Origin: an uncultured Mucispirillum sp.
GTDB lineage: Bacteria > Chrysiogenota > Deferribacteres > Deferribacterales > Mucispirillaceae
Assembly (NCBI GenBank): GCA_944324495.1
Contig: CALUWN010000011.1
Span: 1 to 62,943, forward strand
Reading direction: 5' to 3'
Length of the DNA: 62,943 nucleotides
A program made the translations under genes and the position numbers. Below the pieces are notes generated by a model, which did no database searches, was not told where the DNA came from, and saw only the letters and a program-made list of their open reading frames with translations. This document shows positions 18,418-34,070 of this stretch, piece by piece. Position 1 is the first letter of the stretch. Each line of letters begins with the position of its first letter.

Positions 18418-19377
18418 CTAAAAATAGACCCAAACTAATTCTGCCTTATTAAATATACGTGGCATTATGGGGTTAAAACTTAAGCCCCTTGATACAATTA
18501 AATTTTTACCATTATCAATATTATATAACCCACCTGCATATTTTGGAAATAAGCCTTGGTTTGGAGCATAAAGTCCGTTTAATATAAATGGAATATTTAC
18601 CTGCCCGCCATGAGTATGCCCTGATAAAATATATTCATATGGCAGTTTACTATAGCTTTCCACAAATTCTGGTCTGTGGGTTAATAACACTTTATGGCTG
18701 TTTTCTATTTTTTTAATATCTGCGTTTTCAACTATAATATTTTTAAGCCATAATATATTTTCATAACCATTTATATTATTAATCTTTTTTAAAATATTAT
18801 CATATGTTAAGAAATTATTATAAAGATAATCTTTCACCCATTTATCCTGCCAGTTTTCTTCATAATCCTTTTTTATAAACCTGCCAAGATTATCATATTT
18901 TATAACATATGGGTCGCATATACCAGAAATGAGTATATTTTCATCTTTAATATTGATTAAAAATGAGGGGCTTAAATTATCTAAAACTACTATATTATAT
19001 TTTTTTACTAAATCTTTAAATTCTACTACCCTGTTACTCCAAAACTCATGGTTTCCTGTAACATAAAACTTTGGAATATTACTAAAGGGTGATTCGCTTA
19101 GTGTTTTTAATAATAATTCTGCACCGTAAACATCTTCTTCATCATCAATAATATCTCCACCTAACAGTATTATATCAGGTGTATTATTTATTAATTTATT
19201 TACAAGGCTTTCATAATATAAGGTAGCAGAATGATAATCTGTAATTAAGGCCACTTTTATATTACCTTTTCCAAAAGAATAAGTTTTTTCCACTAACGGA
19301 GCATAAAGGGCAAAAAATAATAAAATAATAAAGACAGTAAGAGCAGTAATTAATATAAATTTTTTATATTTTTTCAT
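18418..19377 (-). CDS. Membrane-anchored calcineurin-like metallophosphoesterase
   Basis: 319 residues. One N-terminal membrane helix (about residues 6-28) precedes a metallophosphoesterase domain. All five metal motifs are visible: 'DYHS', 'GGDIIDD', 'TGNHEFW', 'THRPEF' and 'GHTHGGQ'. This resembles the YkuE/YaeI group, proposed to act on lipid- or nucleotide-linked phosphates at the outer face of the membrane. It overlaps the acetyltransferase gene by 14 bases, so it is the last member of the RND pump operon that begins at 24214. The true substrate cannot be deduced. Confidence 0.85.
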   Translation of the reverse strand: MKKYKKFILITALTVFIILLFFALYAPLVEKTYSFGKGNIKVALITDYHSATLYYESLVNKLINNTPDIILLGGDIIDDEEDVYGAELLLKTLSESPFSNIPKFYVTGNHEFWSNRVVEFKDLVKKYNIVVLDNLSPSFLINIKDENILISGICDPYVIKYDNLGRFIKKDYEENWQDKWVKDYLYNNFLTYDNILKKINNINGYENILWLKNIIVENADIKKIENSHKVLLTHRPEFVESYSKLPYEYILSGHTHGGQVNIPFILNGLYAPNQGLFPKYAGGLYNIDNGKNLIVSRGLSFNPIMPRIFNKAELVWVYF

Positions 19378-19906
19378 ATTCTTCTTTTGTTATGCTGTAG
19401 ACATTATGGGGCATATCCATATTATAGTAATGTTTTATAATAGTATCTTTTAATGTCATACCATTTTTTATGGCTACTTTTATACTTGGTGCGTTATTAG
19501 TGCGTATTATAGCATAAACTTCATCAGCACAAAGCACATTAAAAGCATAGTTTCTACAGGCTTTTGCACTTTCTATAGCATACCCTTTATGCCAGTATTC
19601 TTTTTTTAAAAGATAGCCTGTTTCATAAACTAGATTTTCTTTATATTCTTGATAAGTTATACCACACTGACCTATAAACTTACCATTACTTTTTAATATT
19701 ACAGCCCAAAGCCCAAAACCATACTTATTATATCTTTCTATCTGCTTATTATACCAAGAGATTACTTCTTCTTTAGAAAAGCCATGCTCATAAGCATACA
19801 TTACTTTTTCATCCTGCAATAGTAAACTTAAATCATCCATATCACATTCATTAAGTTTGCGAAGGTATAATCTTTCTGTTTCAATAATTATATTATTCAT
19901 ACTCAA
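19364..19906 (-). CDS. GNAT-family N-acetyltransferase (RimJ/RimL type)
   Basis: 180 residues. It begins with 'IIIETERLYLRKLNECDMDDL', the usual start of RimJ/RimL-like acetyltransferases. 'ETGYLLKKEYWHKGYAIESAKACRNYAF' is the acetyl-CoA binding region (motif A, Gln/Arg-x-x-Gly-x-Gly/Ala equivalent 'HKGYA'). The C-terminal strand 'NAPSIKVAIKNGMT' is also conserved. Substrate could be a ribosomal protein N-terminus, an antibiotic or another amine. It overlaps the upstream pump gene and the downstream phosphoesterase by 14 bases each, so all three are translated together. Confidence 0.85.
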   Translation of the reverse strand: MSMNNIIIETERLYLRKLNECDMDDLSLLLQDEKVMYAYEHGFSKEEVISWYNKQIERYNKYGFGLWAVILKSNGKFIGQCGITYQEYKENLVYETGYLLKKEYWHKGYAIESAKACRNYAFNVLCADEVYAIIRTNNAPSIKVAIKNGMTLKDTIIKHYYNMDMPHNVYSITKEEYEKI

Positions 19907-22900
19907 TTATTTCCTCACTCCCTTGTACTTTGCCTAAAAATAATGAAAGTAATGCAGGTATTAAAAATAATGTAAATATAGTAGATAACGCCATACCACC
20001 AAGTATTACACTACCCATACCACGATAAAGCTCACTGCCAGCTCCGGGAGCTAATACAAGGGGCAGCATACCAAAAAGTGATGTGGCTGTACTCATAAAT
20101 ATAGGGCGGATACGAGTTTGTAGTGCATAGCTTATAGCAACCTTACCACTCATACCATATTTTATATTATTTAATGTTTGGTATACAATTAATATTGGGT
20201 TATTAACAACTGAGCCTATAAGCATAATAAACCCAAGCATAGTAATTACATCTAATGACTGGGTGGCAATAAATTTATTTACAAAATCAAGCCCAATAAA
20301 CCCGCCAGTTGCTGCAAGCGGTACAGAAAAAAGAATTATTAAAGGGTATAAGAAATTATTAAGTAATGCTGCCATTAATAAATATGTAATTAATACTGCC
20401 AGTAAAAAATTACCAGATAGTGCGTTTTTAGCTTCTTCTAATTTAGATGATGCACCACTTGTATATATGGTGATGCCTTCAAGCAGTCCTTCTTCCCGCA
20501 TTGGTTTTATTACTTTTTCATCCATTTTTTCCTGAAGCTGTTCTAACACCATGCCTTTTGGTATGGTAATTATAAATAAAAACGACCTTTGATAGTTATA
20601 TCTTCTAATACGTTCTATACCCATTATTTCATTACTTTCAGAAAGGCTTGAAAGTGGTACAGGAAGCCCAGAATTAGAGTTTACAAGTATAGAATACACA
20701 TCCTGCGGGTTTTCAAATTTACGTGCCTCTCCTTGCAGCATAATATCAATTGTGCCAACAGTTGGGTCTTTAAACTCGCCTATTTTTCTACCGTCAAGGT
20801 ATACATCCACAGAAATACCAAGCTCAGTTGCTGTTACTCCTGCTGATTTTAAGGCTTCCCTGCGTGGTGAAATCTGCACTTCTGGGTACACTGGGTTTGA
20901 TGTAGGGTTTAGCCTAAGCTGAACTTCCGGCATTTCTTCCATTATTCTTTCTTGGATTAATTTAACTGTATTAATAAGGCTTTCGTATTCCATAGAGCCT
21001 GCCACATTCATTAAAAATGTATTTGATGAACCCCTGCCAATATTAAAAAGCGGCACTTGAGAAGTAGAAGCTGTAATACCTGGGATTTTAGCAGCAACTG
21101 ATGCCATTAATGGCTGTAACTCTGCCGCCCTTGCTTCATCTTTACTGGTTGCTCTCATTGCCACATATGTGGAGCTTGCAATATATACATAATTTTCTAT
21201 CTGAGGGTATCCGTCCTTTTCTGATTCCATATAAGGCTGTAGCTCTCTGTATATAAAATCGCCCATAGCTTTTCTTTCGTTATATGAAATACCGGGCGGT
21301 GGTGAAAAACGTGATTCCATCATATTTTTATTACCCAGTGGCAGATAATCCATTTTAGGCATTAATAAATACGCAATCAGTATAGAAGCAGCAGTAACCC
21401 CCACAATAAACACTATTTTTACAATAAATGATGAGTTTATTTTATTTGATAATAACGCAATATATTTTACAAAAAAATTACCAGTATTAACAAGCATCTT
21501 ATCTATGCTTATACTTTTTATTTTGGCTTTTAATTCTGGTTTTAATATTTGTTTTTTTATTTTTATTTTATCTTTTATTTTTTCTTTTAATTTATTTTTT
21601 ACACTTTTTTCTTCTATATTTTCATTTTTTCTATTTTTATTAAAGAATATATTTGCAAGTACAGGAATAACAGCAATAGCTGTAACAAGGCTTAAACCAA
21701 CAGCAGCACTAACAGCTATGGCTATATCACCAAAAAGCTGCCCTGCTTCTTCTTTTATAAATACTACAGGTAAAAATACTGCAATAGTTGTTAATGTGGA
21801 AGCAAGCACTGCTCCCCACACTTCTTTTGTAGCTTGAATGGAAGCAAGGTATGATGATTTTCCCATACGGATATGCCTATCAATATTTTCTAATACTACA
21901 ATAGAGTTATCTATAAGCATACCTACAGAAAAGGCAATACCTGCTAAACTTATTACATTTAATGTTCTACCCAATAAATGCATTATTAAAAATGTGCCTA
22001 CAATACACACTGGAATTGTAACAGCAATAATCAATGTGGCTTTAATGCTTCTTAAAAATACTAAAAGTACAATAACAGCTAAAAGACCACCTACTATAAT
22101 ATTTGATTTTACTAAGTCTATAGCCTGTAATATATAGTTTTTCTGGTCTGCTATTTTTACAAACTTTAATCCGTTGTTTTTTAATATGCCATTATTTAAG
22201 TTTTCTACTACCTTATCAACATCATTTGTTAAATCAAGTACGTTTGCTCCTGCCTGAGCTACAATACCCACACTTAAAGCATTAGTATTGCCATAGCTTA
22301 CAATAGTATTACGCTTTGAAAAACCATAGTCCACATAGGCAATATCACCAAGTGTTATACGTGAGTTATCGCCAGATATAACTACAATATCCCTTATATC
22401 CTGCGGTGTTTTTGCTTCTGCTGTTGTGCGAAACCTGTAATCTTTTGCACCAAAATCAATATTACCTGCTGAAATATTTACATTTTCTTGGTTTAATGCA
22501 GTGATGATAGATGATAAAGTAATGTTATATGCACTGAGCCTGTATGGGTCTACTTCTATTTGCATCTGCCTAGCTCTACCACCCCAGTAGCTAACATCTG
22601 CCACACCATTAATCCTGTCAAAATATGGCTTAATGGTTTCTTCAAAAAAACTTAAATATTCATCTATAGAACGCCTGTTTGTATCATCAGTTAAAAGCAT
22701 TAAATCAACTACAGAAACAGCATCAGTATTTGCTGCCCTGATAGTTGGCTGGTTCATATTTTCAGGGTATCCGCTTACTTCATTTAGTTTATTTGATACT
22801 AAAAGCATAGCATCGTTTACTGGTACATCAATATCAAACATTAATGTAATATAAGCAGAACTTTCCCTGGCAGAACTTTCGCAGTCTATTAAGCCGGGAA

Positions 22901-23114
22901 TTGTTTTTAATACCCGCTCCTGCCTGTCTATAATCTCTTTTTCTACTTCATAAGGGGAAGCACCACGCCAGTAAGTGCTAACTGATATTTGAGGGTATTC
23001 AATACTTGGTATAAGACGGTATGGCATATTTAAAAACGCCTGCACGCCAAATATCACTAAAAAGCATATCCCCACCAATACTTTAACTGGGTTTTCTACT
23101 GCAAATTTAATCAT
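19893..23114 (-). CDS. RND efflux transporter (HAE1 family), copy A
   Basis: 1073 residues with the RND layout of twelve membrane helices and two large periplasmic loops. In helix 4 'GMLIDNSIVVLENID' carries the proton-relay Asp, with Asn where AcrB has a second Asp. 'VVNNPILIVYQTLN' replaces the AcrB helix-10 lysine region, as in other non-AcrB HAE1 pumps. A lysine-rich insertion of about 50 residues (around residues 495-545) occupies the central cytoplasmic loop; copy B has a shorter one. It pumps amphiphilic compounds from the periplasm with the adaptor encoded 14 bases upstream and an outer-membrane channel that is not in the window. It is clearly paralogous to copy B. Confidence 0.92.
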   Translation of the reverse strand: MIKFAVENPVKVLVGICFLVIFGVQAFLNMPYRLIPSIEYPQISVSTYWRGASPYEVEKEIIDRQERVLKTIPGLIDCESSARESSAYITLMFDIDVPVNDAMLLVSNKLNEVSGYPENMNQPTIRAANTDAVSVVDLMLLTDDTNRRSIDEYLSFFEETIKPYFDRINGVADVSYWGGRARQMQIEVDPYRLSAYNITLSSIITALNQENVNISAGNIDFGAKDYRFRTTAEAKTPQDIRDIVVISGDNSRITLGDIAYVDYGFSKRNTIVSYGNTNALSVGIVAQAGANVLDLTNDVDKVVENLNNGILKNNGLKFVKIADQKNYILQAIDLVKSNIIVGGLLAVIVLLVFLRSIKATLIIAVTIPVCIVGTFLIMHLLGRTLNVISLAGIAFSVGMLIDNSIVVLENIDRHIRMGKSSYLASIQATKEVWGAVLASTLTTIAVFLPVVFIKEEAGQLFGDIAIAVSAAVGLSLVTAIAVIPVLANIFFNKNRKNENIEEKSVKNKLKEKIKDKIKIKKQILKPELKAKIKSISIDKMLVNTGNFFVKYIALLSNKINSSFIVKIVFIVGVTAASILIAYLLMPKMDYLPLGNKNMMESRFSPPPGISYNERKAMGDFIYRELQPYMESEKDGYPQIENYVYIASSTYVAMRATSKDEARAAELQPLMASVAAKIPGITASTSQVPLFNIGRGSSNTFLMNVAGSMEYESLINTVKLIQERIMEEMPEVQLRLNPTSNPVYPEVQISPRREALKSAGVTATELGISVDVYLDGRKIGEFKDPTVGTIDIMLQGEARKFENPQDVYSILVNSNSGLPVPLSSLSESNEIMGIERIRRYNYQRSFLFIITIPKGMVLEQLQEKMDEKVIKPMREEGLLEGITIYTSGASSKLEEAKNALSGNFLLAVLITYLLMAALLNNFLYPLIILFSVPLAATGGFIGLDFVNKFIATQSLDVITMLGFIMLIGSVVNNPILIVYQTLNNIKYGMSGKVAISYALQTRIRPIFMSTATSLFGMLPLVLAPGAGSELYRGMGSVILGGMALSTIFTLFLIPALLSLFLGKVQGSEEIIEYE

Positions 23115-23128
23115 ATATATCTTATACC

Positions 23129-24214
23129 TTAGCCTATTTTAGATGTTATTTTTATTTTTACGCCGTTGTTTACCACATTATTACCATCAAGTACTACGCT
23201 GTCATCTTTTTTCAATGTGCCTTCTGTTATAGAGCTGACTGCTAAATAACCGCCGTTATAGCCTATTACTTTAACTGGCACAAATCGTACTCTATTATCT
23301 TCTACAACTTTAAATACGCCTTTTACATTGTTACGCTCAACTAAGGCATCTCGCGGAATTAAAAGTGAGTTGATTTTTGCACCAGAGGGTATTAAGGCTG
23401 TTGTTAATATACCCTCTTTTAAATCTGGGTCCTGTCCTAAATCTATCCTTGTTAAAAATAATCGTGTGGCTGGGTCGCCTTTTGAGTTGATTGATAATAC
23501 TTTACCTGTATATTCTTTTCTGCTTGTGCGAACTACTACCTGCTGACCTGCTTTCACATACGCTAATACGCTTTCTGGAATATAGACTTTTGCTTCATAA
23601 GTTAATGTGGCTACTCCTGCTACTTTGCCGCCTGTGGTTACCCATTCGCCTACTTCCACATCTTTACTTATTACTACACCTTTTAAGGGGGATTTTATAA
23701 GCATTTTATCTTTTTCTACTTCCAAACGTTTTTGACTTGATAATGCTGATGTATAAGATGACTGGGCATTAGTATATGTAGTTAATGAGTCTTGATATGA
23801 CTGCTGGGAGATTGACTGCTGTTTATATAAATTTTTACTTCTGTTAAAATCTCGTAACGCTTTATCTAAATTGGCTTTGGCTTGCTGGGTGCTGGCTTTG
23901 GCACTATCTACACTAAAGGATAATAAGCTGTCATCAAGTTTGGCTAAGGGCTGGCCTATTTCTACTGCATCACCCTCCTGCACATATACCTGCAACACTT
24001 TGCCTGCACTTTCTGCTGCCACTTCTGAGCTTTCACTAAAATAGGCTGAACCTGTTATCATCATTGTTGGTGATGTCATACCTTCGGATACTTTTTCCAC
24101 CGTTACAAGTACAACACGTTCTTTAACACCTGCATTATTACTTTGTTTATTTTGGGCAAATACTATTAATGGGATGATTAATACTAAACATATTGGGAGC
24201 AACTTTTTATACAT
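23129..24214 (-). CDS. RND periplasmic adaptor protein, copy A
   Basis: 361 residues. It is a membrane-fusion protein of the HlyD/AcrA type: signal sequence, a split biotinyl-lipoyl domain ('AAESAGKVLQVYVQEGDAVEIGQPLAKL' and 'LIKSPLKGVVISKDVEVGEWV'), a coiled-coil hairpin between them (about residues 105-165), then a beta barrel. It bridges the pump to an outer-membrane channel. The mature protein is identical to copy B from 'AQNKQ' to the end; only the signal sequences differ (MYKKLLPICL here). The start has an AAGGTG site. It is the first gene of the operon continuing through pump A, acetyltransferase and phosphoesterase. Confidence 0.93.
   Translation of the reverse strand: MYKKLLPICLVLIIPLIVFAQNKQSNNAGVKERVVLVTVEKVSEGMTSPTMMITGSAYFSESSEVAAESAGKVLQVYVQEGDAVEIGQPLAKLDDSLLSFSVDSAKASTQQAKANLDKALRDFNRSKNLYKQQSISQQSYQDSLTTYTNAQSSYTSALSSQKRLEVEKDKMLIKSPLKGVVISKDVEVGEWVTTGGKVAGVATLTYEAKVYIPESVLAYVKAGQQVVVRTSRKEYTGKVLSINSKGDPATRLFLTRIDLGQDPDLKEGILTTALIPSGAKINSLLIPRDALVERNNVKGVFKVVEDNRVRFVPVKVIGYNGGYLAVSSITEGTLKKDDSVVLDGNNVVNNGVKIKITSKIG
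23130..24186. repeat. 1057-bp near-identical duplication, unit 1
   Basis: This block matches 27525-28581 at a constant offset of 4395 bases with only four mismatches that I could find (for example G at 23168 versus A at 27563). Identity begins at the second base of the stop codon and ends inside the signal peptide region. The flanking pump genes are clearly diverged. The pattern fits recent gene conversion or recent replacement of one adaptor copy by the other. Confidence 0.95.
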
Positions 24215-24350
24215 AAGTACACCTTGAAATATAATATCCCTTTAATAATACTAAAAAATTATTAAAAAGAAAACAAAAAAATTTACTAAGGTGATGTTTA
24301 TGTTAAAAATTTATATAATTAATATACAATTTATGTAATAGTACAGCTTT

Positions 24351-27300
24351 TTAATCGTCAATATACCCTTCTGGTAAGTGGTCGTTTCCTTCTACTTTTT
24401 CTAAAAAGAATGAAAGTAGAGCAGGTATTATAAACATAGTAAATACTGTTGAAAGGGCAAGCCCGCCTAATATTACACTACCCATACCCCGATAAAGTTC
24501 GCTGCCGGCACCGGGAGCTACCACAAGTGGCAGCATACCAAAAAGTGATGTGGCTGTACTCATACTAATTGGGCGAATACGCGTTTTTAAAGAAAGCCTT
24601 ACGGCTGCTTTTCCATTCATCCCCAGTTTTATATAGTTTAATGCCTGATACACAAGCAATATTGGGTTATTTACAACTGTTCCCACAAGCATAATAAACC
24701 CAAGCATTGTAATAATATCTAAAGGCTGTTCTGCAATAAATAGGTCTGTTAATGCAAGCCCTATAAACCCACCTGTTGCTGCAAGTGGTACAGAAAAAAG
24801 TATTATTAAAGGGTATAAGAAATTATTAAGTAAAGCTGCCATTAAAAAATATGTAATAATAACGGCTAATATAAAGTTGCCAGATAATGCGTTTTTAGCA
24901 CTTTCCAATTTTGATGAAGCACCACTTGTAGTATAAATTATACCTTTTAACAGCCCTTCTTCTTTCATAGGGTTGATTACTTTATTCATAATCATATCAT
25001 TTAATTCTTCAAGCACCATACCTTTTTGTAATGTTATTTTAAATTCAAAAGCACGTTGAGAATTATATCTTCTAATACGTTCCACACCCATTACTTCTTT
25101 TGCTTCTACAAGATTTGAAATAGGCACAGCAAGCCCAGTTTTAGAATTAACAACAAACTCTTTTACTTCTGACGGGTTAGAATTAAAGTTACCAGTTTCA
25201 CGCTCTTCATAAGGTCCACGGAGAGAAATATCTATGGTACCAATTTCAGGGTCTTTAAATTCACCAACTTTTCTGCCGTCAAGATATACATCTATTGCTA
25301 TACCCACTTCTTCTGTGGAAAGCCCAGATGCTAGTATTGCTTCCCTATCAGGATAAAGCTGAACTTCAGGGTAAACTGGTGTGGCAGAAGGGCTTATCTG
25401 CATCTGCACATCTGGCATCTCTTGATAAATGCGTGCTTGAATAAGCTGTACAGTATTTATTAAAGCATCATAGCTCATATTACCAGAAATATTTAATTTA
25501 TATTCATTACCTTGTCCGCCGCCAACTTTAAAAAGTGGTGATTGTGAAGTAGAGCCACGAATACCTGGTATTTGGTTTACTATGCTTTGAAGTAATGGTT
25601 TATAATCTCCTGCACGCTGTTCATCTGTACTTGTTAAAAATACACGCACATTTGAGCCGCCTGCAAAACCATATGTTTTTATTTGTGGGTATCCATCTAA
25701 GTCCTGCTCCATATAAGGACGCAGCTTTTCATAAAAATAGTTACCTATATTTCTTCTTTCTGATAATGATATACCTGGTGGCACTGTTAATCTTGTTTCT
25801 ATCATATTTTTATTACCCAGTGGCAGGTAGTCCATTTTAGGCATTAATAAATATGCACTAATCAGTGATGAAGCGGTAAGCCCTATAATAACAATTAACC
25901 TTGTACTTACTTTAGAATTAATTTTATCTGAAAGATTAACTGTAAAATCTACAACAACTGAGCCAATATCACCTATTTTTTCATTAAATTTATGTACTTT
26001 TTCCTGTATATTTTTATTGCCTTTAAATTTCATTTTATCAGTTTTTTCATAGATTACTTTTGTGGCAACAGGAATAACTAGAACTGATGCTATTAAACTT
26101 AACCCAACTGATGAGCTTACTGCTATTGCAATATCGCCAAAAAGCTGGCCTGCTTCTTCTTTAATAAATGCAACAGGCAAAAATACGGCAATAGTTGTTA
26201 AGGTGGAAGCAAGTATTGCTCCCCATACTTCCCGCACAGCGTCATAAGCTGCCTGTACTGCCTTTTTACCCATTTTCATATGCCTGTCAATATTTTCAAG
26301 CACCACAATAGAGTTATCTACAAGCATACCTACAGAAAAGGCAATACCTGCCAAACTTATTACGTTTAATGTTCTGCCAAAAGCATCCATTATAAAAAAT
26401 GTACCAATAATACTAATAGGAATAGTAGTTGCAATAACTATTGTAGAACGAATACTTCTTAAAAATACTAAAAGTACTATTATTGCTAATAAACCACCAT
26501 CAATAATATTTGATTTTACTAAGCTTACAGCATTTAAAATATAACTACGCTGGTCTGCAAGCCATATAAACTCTAACCCGTTATCTTTTAATACTGTATT
26601 ATTTAAGTTATTAATAACTGCTTCTAAATCGTTTGTTAAATCTAAAATATTATAGCCTGCCTGAGCGATTACACCAATATTCATTGCATTTTTATTATTA
26701 TACCTAACAAATGCATCTTTTTTCTCATAGCCATAGTCTACATTTGCCACATCGCCTAAAGTAAGCCTATTATTATCACCACTAATAATAACTATATTTG
26801 CAATATCTTCTGGCGTCTGCCCCTCACCCATAGTTCTAAAGCGGTAATCTTTAGCACCATAAGACCTAGTACCTGCTGAAACATCTAAATTTTCTTTATC
26901 AATAGCATTAATAATAGTTGAAAGGTTTATATTATATGCACCCATTTTATATGGGTCTACAGTAATCTGAATTTGTTTAGACCTGCCACCCCAGTACCAT
27001 AAATCAGCCACACCCTGCACGCGTTCAATATATGGTTTGATTACTTCTTCAAAATAGCTTAAATATTCATCTACATTTCTTGGGTTATCATCTGTAGTTG
27101 TAAGCATAAGCTCAATGGAAGCAAAAGAATCACTGTCTGCTGAACGGATAGTAGGTTTATCCATATCATCAGGATAGCCACGAACTTCATCAAGCTTATT
27201 TGAAACAAGTAAGATTGCATCATCCACATTAACAGATAAATCAAATGTAAGTTTTACATTACACCTGCCCTCCATAGCAACGCTTTCAAACTCTGTTAAA

Positions 27301-27521
27301 CCGGGGATACTTTTTAAAACTCGCTCCTGCCTGTCTATAATCTCTTTTTCCATATCATATGGAGAAGCACCAGTCCATGTAGTTCTAATTGTTATCTGAG
27401 GGTATTCTATATTTGGAATAAGACGATATGGCATATTGAATGCTGCCTGCACGCCAAATAATACTACGAAAAATATACCAACTAATACTTTTACAGGGTT
27501 TTCTAAAGCATACTTTATCAT
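24351..27521 (-). CDS. RND efflux transporter (HAE1 family), copy B
   Basis: 1056 residues with the same architecture as copy A: twelve helices, two periplasmic loops, 'GMLVDNSIVVLENID' in helix 4 and 'VVNNPILLVYQALN' in helix 10. Similarity to copy A is high in the membrane helices and lower in the substrate-facing periplasmic loops, so the two pumps probably differ in substrate range. The cytoplasmic linker is shorter and less lysine-rich. It starts 3 bases after the adaptor B stop codon, so the pair is one operon. About 135 bases separate its end from the start of adaptor A, enough for a separate promoter for the second operon. Confidence 0.92.
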   Translation of the reverse strand: MIKYALENPVKVLVGIFFVVLFGVQAAFNMPYRLIPNIEYPQITIRTTWTGASPYDMEKEIIDRQERVLKSIPGLTEFESVAMEGRCNVKLTFDLSVNVDDAILLVSNKLDEVRGYPDDMDKPTIRSADSDSFASIELMLTTTDDNPRNVDEYLSYFEEVIKPYIERVQGVADLWYWGGRSKQIQITVDPYKMGAYNINLSTIINAIDKENLDVSAGTRSYGAKDYRFRTMGEGQTPEDIANIVIISGDNNRLTLGDVANVDYGYEKKDAFVRYNNKNAMNIGVIAQAGYNILDLTNDLEAVINNLNNTVLKDNGLEFIWLADQRSYILNAVSLVKSNIIDGGLLAIIVLLVFLRSIRSTIVIATTIPISIIGTFFIMDAFGRTLNVISLAGIAFSVGMLVDNSIVVLENIDRHMKMGKKAVQAAYDAVREVWGAILASTLTTIAVFLPVAFIKEEAGQLFGDIAIAVSSSVGLSLIASVLVIPVATKVIYEKTDKMKFKGNKNIQEKVHKFNEKIGDIGSVVVDFTVNLSDKINSKVSTRLIVIIGLTASSLISAYLLMPKMDYLPLGNKNMIETRLTVPPGISLSERRNIGNYFYEKLRPYMEQDLDGYPQIKTYGFAGGSNVRVFLTSTDEQRAGDYKPLLQSIVNQIPGIRGSTSQSPLFKVGGGQGNEYKLNISGNMSYDALINTVQLIQARIYQEMPDVQMQISPSATPVYPEVQLYPDREAILASGLSTEEVGIAIDVYLDGRKVGEFKDPEIGTIDISLRGPYEERETGNFNSNPSEVKEFVVNSKTGLAVPISNLVEAKEVMGVERIRRYNSQRAFEFKITLQKGMVLEELNDMIMNKVINPMKEEGLLKGIIYTTSGASSKLESAKNALSGNFILAVIITYFLMAALLNNFLYPLIILFSVPLAATGGFIGLALTDLFIAEQPLDIITMLGFIMLVGTVVNNPILLVYQALNYIKLGMNGKAAVRLSLKTRIRPISMSTATSLFGMLPLVVAPGAGSELYRGMGSVILGGLALSTVFTMFIIPALLSFFLEKVEGNDHLPEGYIDD

Positions 27522-27523
27522 AT

Positions 27524-28606
27524 CTAGCCTATTTTAGATGTTATTTTTATTTTTACGCCGTTATTTACCACATTATTACCATCAAGTACTACGCTGTCAT
27601 CTTTTTTCAATGTGCCTTCTGTTATAGAGCTGACTGCTAAATAACCGCCGTTATAGCCTATTACTTTAACTGGCACAAATCGTACTCTATTATCTTCTAC
27701 AACTTTAAATACGCCTTTTACATTGTTACGCTCAACTAAGGCATCTCGCGGAATTAAAAGTGAGTTGATTTTTGCACCAGAGGGTATTAAGGCTGTTGTT
27801 AATATACCCTCTTTTAAATCTGGGTCCTGTCCTAAATCTATCCTTGTTAAAAATAATCGTGTGGCTGGGTCGCCTTTTGAGTTGATTGATAATACTTTAC
27901 CTGTATATTCTTTTCTGCTTGTGCGAACTACTACCTGCTGACCTGCTTTCACATACGCTAATACGCTTTCTGGAATATAGACTTTTGCTTCATAAGTTAA
28001 TGTGGCTACTCCTGCTACTTTGCCGCCTGTGGTTACCCATTCGCCTACTTCCACATCTTTACTTATTACTACACCTTTTAAGGGGGATTTTATAAGCATT
28101 TTATCTTTTTCTACTTCCAAACGTTTTTGACTTGATAATGCTGATGTATAAGATGACTGGGCATTAGTATATGTAGTTAATGAGTCTTGATATGACTGCT
28201 GGGAGATTGACTGCTGTTTATATAAATTTTTACTTCTGTTAAAATCTCGTAACGCTTTATCTAAATTGGCTTTGGCTTGCTGGGTGCTGGCTTTGGCACT
28301 ATCTACACTAAAGGATAATAAGCTGTCATCAAGTTTGGCTAAGGGCTGGCCTATTTCTACTGCATCACCCTCCTGCACATATACCTGCAACACTTTGCCT
28401 GCACTTTCTGCTGCCACTTCTGAGCTTTCACTAAAATAGGCTGAACCTGTTATCATCATTGTTGGCGATGTCATACCTTCGGATACTTTTTCCACCGTTA
28501 CAAGTACAACGCGTTCTTTAACACCTGCATTATTACTTTGTTTATTTTGGGCTAATACTATTAATGGGATGATTAATACTATTATTAAAAAAATATATTT
28601 TTTCAT
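27524..28606 (-). CDS. RND periplasmic adaptor protein, copy B
   Basis: 360 residues with the same domains as copy A: lipoyl halves, coiled-coil hairpin and beta barrel. Its mature sequence is identical to copy A, while the signal peptide differs (MKKYIFLIIV here). The start is ATG 28606 with GGGGG 4 bases upstream; the TTG at 28621 is upstream of that site. Because one identical adaptor serves two diverged pumps, either adaptor could in principle assemble with either pump. The stop codon is TAG here and TAA in copy A, marking the edge of the homogenised block. Confidence 0.93.
   Translation of the reverse strand: MKKYIFLIIVLIIPLIVLAQNKQSNNAGVKERVVLVTVEKVSEGMTSPTMMITGSAYFSESSEVAAESAGKVLQVYVQEGDAVEIGQPLAKLDDSLLSFSVDSAKASTQQAKANLDKALRDFNRSKNLYKQQSISQQSYQDSLTTYTNAQSSYTSALSSQKRLEVEKDKMLIKSPLKGVVISKDVEVGEWVTTGGKVAGVATLTYEAKVYIPESVLAYVKAGQQVVVRTSRKEYTGKVLSINSKGDPATRLFLTRIDLGQDPDLKEGILTTALIPSGAKINSLLIPRDALVERNNVKGVFKVVEDNRVRFVPVKVIGYNGGYLAVSSITEGTLKKDDSVVLDGNNVVNNGVKIKITSKIG
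27525..28581. repeat. 1057-bp near-identical duplication, unit 2
   Basis: This is the partner of 23130-24186, in the same orientation, with four mismatches seen by direct comparison. The two direct repeats flank the 3.2-kb pump B gene. Recombination between them would delete or duplicate pump B together with one adaptor. Confidence 0.95.
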
Positions 28607-28765: not shown

Positions 28766-30832
28766 TTATTTTAAAGCTCGCATAGAATTAAGCAGTGCCA
28801 GTAATGCAACACCAACATCCCCAAACACTGCTTCCCACATAGAAGCGATACCAAAAAGCCCAAGGATAATAAATAATGCTTTAATAGATAAAGCAAATAT
28901 TACATTCTGCCATATTATAGTTTTTGTACGTTTTGCAACTTTTACAGCTTGAGCTATTTTCATTAAGCTGTCGTTCATAATAACCACATCGGCTGTTTCA
29001 ATAGCTGCATCGCTTCCTGCTGCACCCATAGAAATACCCACATCTGCTAAAGCTAATACTGGAGCATCGTTTATACCGTCACCCACAAAAACTGTACTGC
29101 CGCTGCCTTTATATTTATCTGAAAACTCTTTAAATTTTTCTGCCTTTTCACTTGGTAAAAGGTCATGATAATATTCTTTTATATTTGTATTTTTTAATAT
29201 GGTTTCTGTGGCATATTTATTATCACCTGTTAAAACTGTAAGGTTTTTAATACCCATATTATTAAGCTCTTTTATGGCTTCTACTGTATCATCTTTTAAT
29301 TCATCACTTATTATAATATAGCCTGCATATTCTTTATCTATTACAATATGAGCCACACTTCCTAAAATATTGCATACTTCTTTATTATGCTTAATTTCTG
29401 CAAAGTGAAGCAGGCTGTCGTTACCTATCATAATCTCTTTATCTTCAATAGAAACCCTTATACCCCTGCCACTGATTTCTTCATAGTCTTTTAATTGAAA
29501 ATCTGATACACCAGCAAAATCTACAATTGATTTTGCAATAGGGTGGTTAGACCTGCTTTCTGCCATAGCAGCATACTTTATAATTTCTTCTTTAGAATAG
29601 CGCCCTGCTGGCACAATATCTGTTACTTTAAACACACCTTTTGTTAAAGTGCCTGTTTTATCAAAAGCAATAGCTGAAACATTGGATAATGCTTCTAAAT
29701 AGTTTGCACCTTTTACAAGTATTCCTTTTTTAGAAGCGCCCCCAATACCACCAAAATAACCAAGTGGCACGCTAATAATTAATGCACAAGGGCAGGAAAC
29801 AACTAATGCAACTAAGGCACGGTAAAGCCACTCATTAAAACTTCCCATATTTAAAAGTGGAGGCACAACTGCTATTAATAATGCAATTAAAAATACAATT
29901 GGCGTATAATAACCTGCAAATTTCGTAATAAAATTTTCAGTTTTAGCTTTATTTGCTGCAGCATTTTCTACCATATCTAATATTTTAGAAGCAGAGCTTT
30001 CTGCAAATGATTTTTCCACCTGAATTTTAATAATACCTGTTAAATTTACCATACCAGAAAGTACGCTGTCGCCTGCTTCTGCCCCACGGGGAACTGCTTC
30101 ACCAGTTAATGCTCTTGTATCAAGGGTAGTTTTGCCCTCTATTATTTTACCATCAAGGGCTATTTTCTCCCCAGCTTTTACAAGTATTACTTCACCAACA
30201 GATATATTTTCTGGGTGTAAGGTTATCTCTTTATTATCACGCAGCACAACTGCATAATCTGGGCGTATTTCTAAAAGAGATTTTATGGAACGCCTGCTTT
30301 TATGTACTGCAAAGTCTTGAAAAAATTCACCAGCTCTGTAAAATATCATAACACCAACAGCTTCTTCATAGCTTTTAATACCCCATGCTGCCATAGTTGC
30401 AAATGTCATTAAAAAGTTTTCATCAAATATTTTACCACGTATAATATTTTTAACTGATTTTATAATAACATCTTTACCTGCTGTAAAATAAACTAATAAA
30501 AGCATGGCAAAACCAGAATAAGAATATGGAAAAGTAGTAACATTATGAAGTAGATATATTCCAACTCCAAAAGCGATTAATAAAACAAATAAAAGTATAA
30601 GTTCATTTTTTACATTAAACTCTGATTCTACTTTTTTCTCGTTTATAACCACATCTTTTTCTATTTTTTTAATCTCTTTTTGTACTTTTGATATATTATC
30701 TGTATCAATAAACAGCGTTTTTGTGGCAAAAACAACTTTCGCATCTTTTACACAGCTTAAATTTTTAATGCCTTCCTCTATTTTTGCTGCACACATTGGG
30801 CAGTCAAGATTATCTATAGTATATTTTTTCAT
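28766..30832 (-). CDS. Zn/Cd/Pb-type P1B heavy-metal exporting ATPase
   Basis: 688 residues. One N-terminal heavy-metal-associated domain has 'CPMC' (Cys11, Cys14). The 'SCPCAL' membrane motif (Cys347, Cys349) marks a soft-metal transporter. 'DKTGTLTKG' holds the phosphorylated Asp391, 'SRSNHPIAKS' gives the His-Pro nucleotide site, and 'GDGINDAPVLALADVGISMG' is the hinge. 'CPCALIISVP' and the overall length suit the ZntA/CadA group, which exports Zn(II), Cd(II) or Pb(II); copper pumps usually differ in the last helices. It lies three bases after the ArsR-family gene with a GAGGTGAT ribosome site, so it is the regulated partner of that repressor. Confidence 0.92.
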   Translation of the reverse strand: MKKYTIDNLDCPMCAAKIEEGIKNLSCVKDAKVVFATKTLFIDTDNISKVQKEIKKIEKDVVINEKKVESEFNVKNELILLFVLLIAFGVGIYLLHNVTTFPYSYSGFAMLLLVYFTAGKDVIIKSVKNIIRGKIFDENFLMTFATMAAWGIKSYEEAVGVMIFYRAGEFFQDFAVHKSRRSIKSLLEIRPDYAVVLRDNKEITLHPENISVGEVILVKAGEKIALDGKIIEGKTTLDTRALTGEAVPRGAEAGDSVLSGMVNLTGIIKIQVEKSFAESSASKILDMVENAAANKAKTENFITKFAGYYTPIVFLIALLIAVVPPLLNMGSFNEWLYRALVALVVSCPCALIISVPLGYFGGIGGASKKGILVKGANYLEALSNVSAIAFDKTGTLTKGVFKVTDIVPAGRYSKEEIIKYAAMAESRSNHPIAKSIVDFAGVSDFQLKDYEEISGRGIRVSIEDKEIMIGNDSLLHFAEIKHNKEVCNILGSVAHIVIDKEYAGYIIISDELKDDTVEAIKELNNMGIKNLTVLTGDNKYATETILKNTNIKEYYHDLLPSEKAEKFKEFSDKYKGSGSTVFVGDGINDAPVLALADVGISMGAAGSDAAIETADVVIMNDSLMKIAQAVKVAKRTKTIIWQNVIFALSIKALFIILGLFGIASMWEAVFGDVGVALLALLNSMRALK

Positions 30833-30835
30833 AAA

Positions 30836-31183
30836 TCACCTCTTTTCATTAATATGCTCTAAACCCATAAGTAGAACGCCAGTTATATGGTCATCATCAA
30901 GGCTGTAATATACATTTTTGCCTTCCTGCCTTGATTTAACAATACCAGTCTGCCTTAAAAACCTAAGCTGTTGTGATACTGTGGACTGCTTTAAAGATAG
31001 TGCCGCACATATATCATAGACGCATAACTCCACTTCTTTTAATGCAAATAATATTTTTATCCTTGTTGTATCAGCAAAAACTTTATAAAAAAGCTCTAAA
31101 GATACTATTGAATATTCTGAAGGCAGGCTTTCTTTTGCTGTATTAACTGCTTCTGCATCAATTATTTTACCTTCGTCACTCAT
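30836..31183 (-). CDS. ArsR/SmtB-family metal-responsive repressor
   Basis: 115 residues from the ATG that follows GGAG; the ATG at 31195 overlaps that site. It is a winged-helix dimer with 'ELCVYDICAALSLKQSTVSQQLRFLRQTGIVKSRQEGKNVYYSL'. The helix-3 segment 'ELCVYDI' retains one Cys of the ELCVCDL metal box of CadC/ArsR; its second Cys is Tyr. A C-terminal His-rich stretch ('DDHITGVLLMGLEHINEKR') could be the alpha-5 zinc site of SmtB/CzrA-like sensors. Family members release DNA when bound to metal. It probably controls its own promoter and the downstream P-type ATPase from the palindrome at 31215-31234. Confidence 0.9.
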   Translation of the reverse strand: MSDEGKIIDAEAVNTAKESLPSEYSIVSLELFYKVFADTTRIKILFALKEVELCVYDICAALSLKQSTVSQQLRFLRQTGIVKSRQEGKNVYYSLDDDHITGVLLMGLEHINEKR

Positions 31184-31214
31184 AACATACTCCATTTCAT
31201 AACATCAATTCATC

Positions 31215-33335: not shown

Positions 33336-33459
33336 TGGTTGAAAATACTCTAAACTGATATTTTCAACAGAAACTTTTCATACTGAGCAGAATGCGAAGT
33401 ATCTATTGTAGCTCTCATATTTTAAAGTTCTTTCGCTTATGCTCAAGAAGACATAGTAG
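33336..33459 (+). repeat. Hairpin repeat copy 1
   Basis: The unit has two parts. First, a perfect small hairpin with GTTGAAAATA (33338-33347) and TATTTTCAAC (33359-33368). Second, a longer imperfect hairpin in which CTGAGCAGAATGCGAAG pairs loosely with the later CTTTCGCTTATGCTCAAG, about 50 bases downstream. Both arms carry the same core (GAGC, a short gap, GCGAA) in opposite orientation, as in paired REP elements. The first hairpin could also end transcription of the kinase gene, but no T-run follows. Confidence 0.85.
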
Positions 33460-33495
33460 TGTTATAATAATCTATAAGAATATTGTAATACTATG

Positions 33496-33617
33496 TGGTT
33501 GAAAATACTCTAAACTAATATTTTCAACAGCAACTTTTCATACTGAGCGAATGCGAAGTATCTTTATGGCTCTTATATTTTAAAGTTCTTTCGCTTAACG
33601 CTCAAGAAGACATAGTA
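33496..33617 (+). repeat. Hairpin repeat copy 2
   Basis: This is nearly the same as copy 1 from the GTTGAAAATA hairpin (33498-33528) through the second hairpin, ending in CATAGTA. The core here is the regular form GAGCGAATGCGAAG, and the opposite arm reads CTTTCGCTTAACGCTCAAG. Differences from copy 1 are single bases and a short indel. Both arms keep pairing potential, so structure appears conserved. Confidence 0.85.
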
Positions 33618-33706
33618 CAGAAACTTTTCATACTGAGCAGAATGCGAAGTATCTTTTATAGCTCTTATATTTTAAAGTTCTTTCGCTTAACGCTCAAGAA
33701 GACATG
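33618..33706 (+). repeat. Hairpin repeat copy 3, lacking the first hairpin
   Basis: It begins at CAGAAACTTTTCATACTGAG, directly after copy 2, and ends in CAAGAAGACATG beside the GIY-YIG gene. The GTTGAAAATA hairpin is missing, so the second hairpin is a separable module. Confidence 0.82.
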
Positions 33707-33707
33707 T

Positions 33708-34070
33708 CTAGGAAGTAATAAAGTCATACAAATCAAGCCAGTTAGGGTTTATAGAATTTACCAGCGAGTTTTTAAAGGCTCTCTTTTTCTTTTTAATATA
33801 CTTCTCTCTTTCTAATGCATGATTTATTTCCTGATATATTTCAAAATATACAAGCTTATTACAATTATACTTATATGTAAAACTTTCTACATACTTTTCT
33901 TTATGCTGATGTATTCTTTTAATTAGATTGCTTGTAATCTCTGTATACAGCACACTATTAGTATAGTTTGTAACCATATAAATATAGTATTGATTACCAG
34001 TTCCTGCAATTTGTTTATCTGATAATTTAACTGAACTAAAATCTACTTTCATATAATTATTATAGTTCAT
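33708..34070 (-). CDS. GIY-YIG nuclease-domain protein with altered YIG motif
   Basis: 120 residues. The single domain starts at 'QYYIYMVTNYTNSVLYTEIT', where family members normally read a Tyr-x-Gly in the second half; here Glu44 replaces that Gly. The catalytic Arg ('LIKRIHQHK', Arg52) and the metal-binding Glu region ('EINHALEREKYIKKKKRA') are retained, so activity may be reduced rather than lost. About 25 extra residues precede the domain. Small GIY-YIG proteins like this are widespread, are often misnamed UvrC-like, and have no settled function. It sits between htrA and the hairpin repeats, its 3' end touching repeat copy 3. No good ribosome site is seen; ATG 34052 is an alternative start. 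Confidence 0.8.
   Translation of the reverse strand: MNYNNYMKVDFSSVKLSDKQIAGTGNQYYIYMVTNYTNSVLYTEITSNLIKRIHQHKEKYVESFTYKYNCNKLVYFEIYQEINHALEREKYIKKKKRAFKNSLVNSINPNWLDLYDFITS

Follow-up and report, generated by a model that had tools for sequence, protein, structure and literature searches.

Two adaptor-pump gene pairs of the window

The window, by which we mean the whole stretch of 62,943 nucleotides that was analysed, belongs to the genome of an uncultured Mucispirillum (G000). It carries two gene pairs, A and B, each composed of an RND periplasmic adaptor and an AcrB-family pump. The features on which the analysis rests are the following:

19893..23114, minus strand: pump A, AcrB-family RND transporter of 1073 aa (Pfam ACR_tran, 619 bits; A clade, 100/100)
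23129..24214, minus strand: adaptor A gene, coding for a 361-aa RND periplasmic adaptor (membrane fusion protein); lies directly upstream of pump A and matches Pfam HlyD families above cut-off
23130..24186, minus strand: homogenised tract of adaptor A, 1057 bp, from the ungapped comparison with 27525-28581
24155..24214, minus strand: signal peptide A, MYKKLLPICLVLIIPLIVFA; 5' part locus-specific and not homogenised, cleavage site predicted from the sequence
24351..27521, minus strand: pump B, AcrB-family RND transporter of 1056 aa (Pfam ACR_tran, 622 bits; B clade, 100/100)
27524..28606 (from ATG), minus strand: adaptor B gene, RND periplasmic adaptor of 360 aa, directly upstream of pump B; TIGR01730 RND_mfp
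27525..28581, minus strand: homogenised tract of adaptor B, partner of 23130-24186 in the ungapped comparison
28550..28606, minus strand: signal peptide B, MKKYIFLIIVLIIPLIVLA; 5' part locus-specific and not homogenised, cleavage site predicted from the sequence
28766..30832, minus strand: heavy-metal P-type ATPase gene that precedes adaptor B; locus-B syntenic marker, outside the conversion; TIGR01525/TIGR01512 above cut-off
30836..31195, minus strand: ArsR/SmtB-family regulator, upstream of the ATPase; locus-B syntenic marker; NF033788 above cut-off

The first-pass annotation of this DNA had reported a 1057-bp match, broken by four mismatches, between the two adaptor genes, which encode the same mature protein. 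Ungapped comparison at an offset of 4395 confirmed this and placed the mismatches at 23168, 24071, 24116 and 24158. Three of the four are synonymous and the substitution at 24158 (Phe/Leu) is confined to the signal peptide, so that the mature adaptors are identical proteins (dS 0.013, dN 0). The sharp ends of the identity, which had also been described, were found as stated: at one edge the identity ends inside the stop codon (TAA/TAG), at the other inside the signal peptide, and the flanks past both edges are unmatched in the same register. The homogenised stretch thus comprises the mature part plus a few signal-peptide codons, and it occurs in the genome in these two copies, with no other close copy. 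Chance likeness of the adaptors was rejected as an explanation, since their dS within the genome is 0.013 against approximately 1 for the adjoining pumps.

The adaptor encoded with the pump scored 188 bits with TIGR01730 (RND_mfp; cut-off 94.9), and both pumps are full-length AcrB-family transporters, in which PF00873 covers residues 1-1037 and 1-1058. The pumps had been called merely paralogous, a description that fits their identity of approximately 62% in protein and 69% in DNA (dS 1.04, dN 0.28); the best blocks between them reach 71-78% DNA identity.

A plasmid search with the whole region gave no matches, and promoter and terminator scans performed no better than shuffles. Positions 33336-33705 hold a cluster of direct repeats of 51-73 nt, in two or three copies each, which are 65-98% alike and adjoin a small gene with a GIY-YIG domain (ORF 33708-34070); the cluster is possibly a small mobile or repeat element.

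Phylogeny and genomic context of adaptors and pumps

The best matches of the adaptor were contigs of Mucispirillum, a gut genus of the phylum Deferribacterota. Ten genomes of the genus, mostly metagenome bins, were compared (the window genome G000 and G001-G009), together with five from two other genera of the family. Each of these two genera has one such adaptor-pump pair, with 47-50% identity in the adaptor and 52-63% in the pump.

In the pump protein tree the A and B pumps form two clades, each supported at 100/100, and these two group apart from the single pump of the sister genus (G011) with a support of 100/98. This places one duplication in the Mucispirillum stem, before all sampled species and after the split from G011. 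The tree of the mature adaptor gene has another shape. Pairing was scored in the five species with two full copies (G000, G003, G004, G006 and G007), and in every one of them the two adaptors of a genome are closest to each other (bootstrap 98-100). A single clade of locus-A adaptors was rejected by the AU test (p-AU 2.9e-20, and 1.2e-9 when the mosaic genome G001 was left out), with a constraint that took in all locus-A rows, G002_A and G005_A included. Separate trees in related genomes were the check that the first-pass annotation had proposed for gene conversion, and their outcome, adaptors clustering by genome and pumps by locus, is the one it had predicted.

Synonymous distances agree with the trees. 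Adaptor dS is 0.009-0.049 within a genome and 0.5-1.2 between the five two-copy species, whereas pump A and pump B of one genome are separated by a dS of 0.9-1.2. As in concerted evolution, paralogues within a genome are closer than orthologues between species, and pump tree, synteny and clustering of the leaders by locus all indicate a duplication older than the species. Read in this way, the sequences require no fewer than five independent rounds of homogenisation, one per tip lineage. In G009 the contigs of locus A and locus B have different signal peptides, and both break shortly after these within one and the same adaptor sequence, which is what two near-identical copies should give.

The two loci lie in tandem, B then A, in G000 and G006, and G001 is consistent with the same order. 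They are 56 kb apart in G003, on two contigs in G004 and 1.47 Mb apart in G007, a genome assembled in one contig, whose two mature adaptors still share 99.3% identity despite this separation. Locus B adjoins the heavy-metal P-type ATPase and the ArsR regulator throughout the genus wherever its surroundings are visible, locus A adjoins a sulfatase-family gene in the second clade, and both loci keep their synteny within clades. This constancy argues against fresh duplications in each species. A suggestion that pump B might be lost or amplified through the direct repeats was not borne out: neither event was seen, and in G003, G004 and G007 the loci are far apart. The one genome in which pump B was not found is G005, which is 57% complete. 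The 3' end of pump A overlaps a GNAT acetyltransferase gene (19364-19906), and the two remain neighbours in several genomes of both clades (L033, L035, L037, L041 and L044), though the locus has moved.

The edges of the tract were also followed between genomes. The N-terminus of the mature adaptor is variable and differs from genome to genome (for instance QNKQSNNAGVKE, QTKQSGSQAQKE, QKQPSGISSSKE); within a genome it is the same at both loci. The leaders behave in the opposite way in the second clade (G002, G003, G004 and G007), on which the clustering by locus rests, the leaders of the first clade being too diverged to tell: they are 76-95% identical for the same locus in different genomes and 59-60% between the two loci of one genome. 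The change in similarity at the tract edges is sharp, with a partial tract in G001. Tracts that end where similarity ends fit recombination between imperfect repeats.

A sliding-window search for conversion tracts within the pumps found none, barring a marginal patch in G007. In windows of 150 nt the excess identity of the pumps within a genome was at most 0.06 outside this patch, compared with a mean excess of 0.11-0.20 for the adaptors. The G007 pumps (L038, L039) are slightly too alike at aligned positions 1200-1440, where the excess reaches 0.10, and this perhaps marks a small conversion tract inside the pumps.

Positions fixed differently in pumps A and B were counted by domain, with borders set by alignment to the domains of AcrB. 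Such positions make up 79 of 390 in the porter region, 20 of 373 in the membrane part (p 4e-10 against the porter region) and 24 of 176 in the docking domains. The docking domains therefore carry slightly fewer of them than the porter region (p 0.06), which is suggestive of the adaptor-facing parts of the pumps having stayed alike.

Two genomes that depart from the common pattern

G001 differs from the other genomes in the origin of its pump B, which has 99% DNA identity to pump B of G000 (dS 0.03), while its pump A is nearer to that of G006 (dS 0.30) than to that of G000 (dS 0.51). The G000-like stretch takes in the last approximately 425 bases of adaptor B, which are 98% identical to G000 and 89% to the genome's own adaptor A. 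The preceding 280 bases are still homogenised, with 99% identity between A and B and 81% to G000. As judged by these identities, a foreign pump B and the 3' part of adaptor B would have been imported together, this part awaiting homogenisation. Such an import means that recombination between lineages breaks the uniformity of the adaptors, and that the stretch has so far gone unrepaired; caution is due, since the sequence comes from a short contig of a metagenome bin. Segments that are G000-like (97-99%) or G006-like (93-97%) also form a patchwork within pump A and around pump B of this genome (L041 for locus A, L040 for locus B). It is a sign of either frequent recombination between Mucispirillum lineages or mixing in the bin.

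In G002 adaptor A is the one full adaptor copy that was found. What is left of adaptor B is an open frame at L043:2588-2866, before an intact pump B, and consists of a B-type signal peptide region (94% identical to G003 B), a few residues and a C-terminal piece. This piece is closer to the genome's own adaptor A (86%) than to G003 (79%), which indicates that adaptor B of G002 was probably homogenised at an earlier time, then deleted and left to drift. The deletion was seen in one genome, 86% complete. In this pump B 1055 of 1056 residues were matched, with no stops, and its distances to G003 (dN 0.023, dS 0.40) are similar to those between G004 and G003 (0.018 and 0.35), so that it is as constrained as elsewhere. 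The simplest reading is that adaptor A would serve pump B in trans, as AcrA does with AcrD; the genome gives support to this reading, short of proof. A second pump without an adaptor gene of its own thus occurs in G002 only, by deletion, and in the window both pumps have one.

Proposed origin and maintenance of the common adaptor sequence

The following course of events accounts for these results. One adaptor-pump operon was duplicated in the Mucispirillum ancestor, giving locus A and locus B, and the pumps then diverged, most in the periplasmic porter region. The mature-adaptor part of both genes was repeatedly homogenised, at least once per species lineage and with the loci either adjacent or 1.47 Mb apart, very probably by gene conversion and presumably through RecA-type recombination between the copies. 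The tracts end at the locus-specific signal peptide or leader on one side, and on the other at the diverged pump gene past the stop codon. The likeliest reason for the persistence of the process would be that both pumps draw on a common adaptor, tracking one sequence while they specialise in cargo.

Gene conversion of the adaptor had been offered in the first-pass annotation as the better explanation, and trees, dS and synteny now strongly support it; that conversion recurred and was confined to the adaptor seems to us very probable. Recent tandem duplication of the whole operon, followed by rapid divergence of the pumps only, would suit the adjacent operons of the window and of G006. The phylogeny of the pumps and their dS refute it: the A and B clades predate all sampled species of the genus, and a dS of approximately 1 is synonymous divergence beyond what selection on the protein alone would produce, which leaves this explanation with practically no probability. 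Nor are the pumps as similar as the adaptors, being approximately 62% identical next to identical mature adaptors. A species-specific replacement or duplication of the adaptor, recent and independent in each species, would also give pairing within genomes by sequence alone, with no conversion between resident copies. Within each clade, however, both adaptors keep a constant position in front of their respective pumps, each with its locus-specific leader; a new copy placed in frame behind the old leader, in species after species, would in effect be gene conversion, and as a separate process we consider it very unlikely. The near-identity might also be produced in assembly, if the assembler placed a single adaptor twice or filled both places with a consensus. 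Short-read contigs do break at the adaptor repeat in G001 and G009, and a consensus could partly account for the 903 bp of exact identity within the window. Breaks of this kind are nevertheless what two real near-identical copies yield, and in every genome the copies have differences and distinct flanks. The two copies of the window have four differences and differing flanks, and G007, in one contig, agrees, with seven differences between the mature copies; in G004 there are eleven, on two contigs. A collapsed or duplicated adaptor, which had been a concern from the start, is accordingly highly improbable.

The more serious alternative concerns the cause of the conversion. Under neutral concerted evolution the adaptors would simply never have fallen below the similarity needed to recombine, as the pumps did, and no advantage of a common adaptor would be needed. 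In line with this, the tracts stop where similarity stops and recombination between lineages is frequent in the region. Extra amino-acid constraint between paired adaptors was not significant (p 0.36), with 2 nonsynonymous and 26 synonymous changes within genomes versus about 16 and 85 between G003 and G004. Homogeneity was nonetheless held in every informative genome, even at 1.47 Mb, while the pumps reached a dS of approximately 1, and pump B of G002 persists under constraint after the loss of adaptor B, which suggests real sharing. Neutral concerted evolution remains a plausible, if not the favoured, explanation.

Two observations bear on a shared adaptor, namely the identical mature adaptors of the window and the retention of pump B without adaptor B in G002. 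Functional sharing of one adaptor by both pumps, as suggested by these sequences, is in our judgement fairly likely. Selection for one adaptor serving two pumps, which the first-pass annotation had put forward next to gene conversion, gained indirect support from the recurrence in every informative genome and from pump B of G002; as the cause of the homogenisation it has about an even chance. The same balanced judgement applies to conversion as a device of co-adaptation, which would keep the adaptor single for one common pool and leave the transporters free to specialise.

Known systems provide parallels for the separate parts of this arrangement. The EF-Tu genes tufA and tufB are likewise two near-identical copies kept alike in each species by conversion, also when distant (PMC6053082; PMC5485169); conversion between the Salmonella tuf genes was measured with copies 762 kb apart (PMC5485169), compared with 1.47 Mb here. 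Unlike in tuf, the duplicated unit is a two-gene operon in which homogenisation affects one gene and the other stands at a dS of approximately 1, and the homogenised part omits the start of the signal peptide. In enterobacteria AcrA is common to AcrB and AcrD (PMC6975555, PMC8446912). The divergence of pumps A and B (approximately 62% identity) resembles that of AcrB and AcrD, which are approximately 66% identical (PMC5556075). Pump B of G002 is, like AcrD, without a full adaptor of its own, but otherwise each pump here usually has an adaptor gene to itself, and conversion holds the two genes alike. Periplasmic-domain swaps in AcrB-type pumps place substrate specificity in those domains (PMC8277102); given the differences in the porter region, pumps A and B probably differ in cargo, with the adaptor kept common.

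A survey of 682 prokaryote species (Wang and Chen 2018) found concerted evolution in 26 genes, and neither of its tables includes an RND adaptor (PMC6053082). Our searches for literature on gene conversion with RND adaptors, or on efflux pumps or membrane fusion proteins in concerted evolution, which covered few subscription journals, returned nothing on this case. The parts are thus known singly, as tuf-like conversion and as AcrA sharing; we found no report of their combination, which does not amount to a new type of system. Recurrent concerted evolution of prokaryote protein genes is rare. If the proposed course of events is true, it acted genus-wide on a single subunit of a duplicated complex as the binding partner of that subunit diverged, separating a common adaptor from a specialising pump. 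The genus would offer a natural, testable case for asking if sharing a partner brings selection for gene conversion, with G002 as a ready natural deletion. It also calls for caution, because conversion of adaptors between operons can make RND-adaptor trees or substrate predictions misleading.

In composition the two operons resemble RND tripartite efflux systems of the HAE type, with an AcrB-family transporter, an RND_mfp adaptor and TolC-type channels encoded at other places: the genome has four open frames that match OEP (PF02321) above cut-off, all outside these operons. The pumps score below the NCBIfam subfamily cut-offs for RND permeases. At the positions of the AcrB proton relay (D407/D408/K940), pumps A and B, as well as the single pumps of the related genera, have D-N-N, that is, Asn in place of Asp408 and Lys940. 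This replacement marks them as members of the AcrB family without being AcrB equivalogs, and as read from these residues the proton relay of both pumps is unlike that of AcrB.
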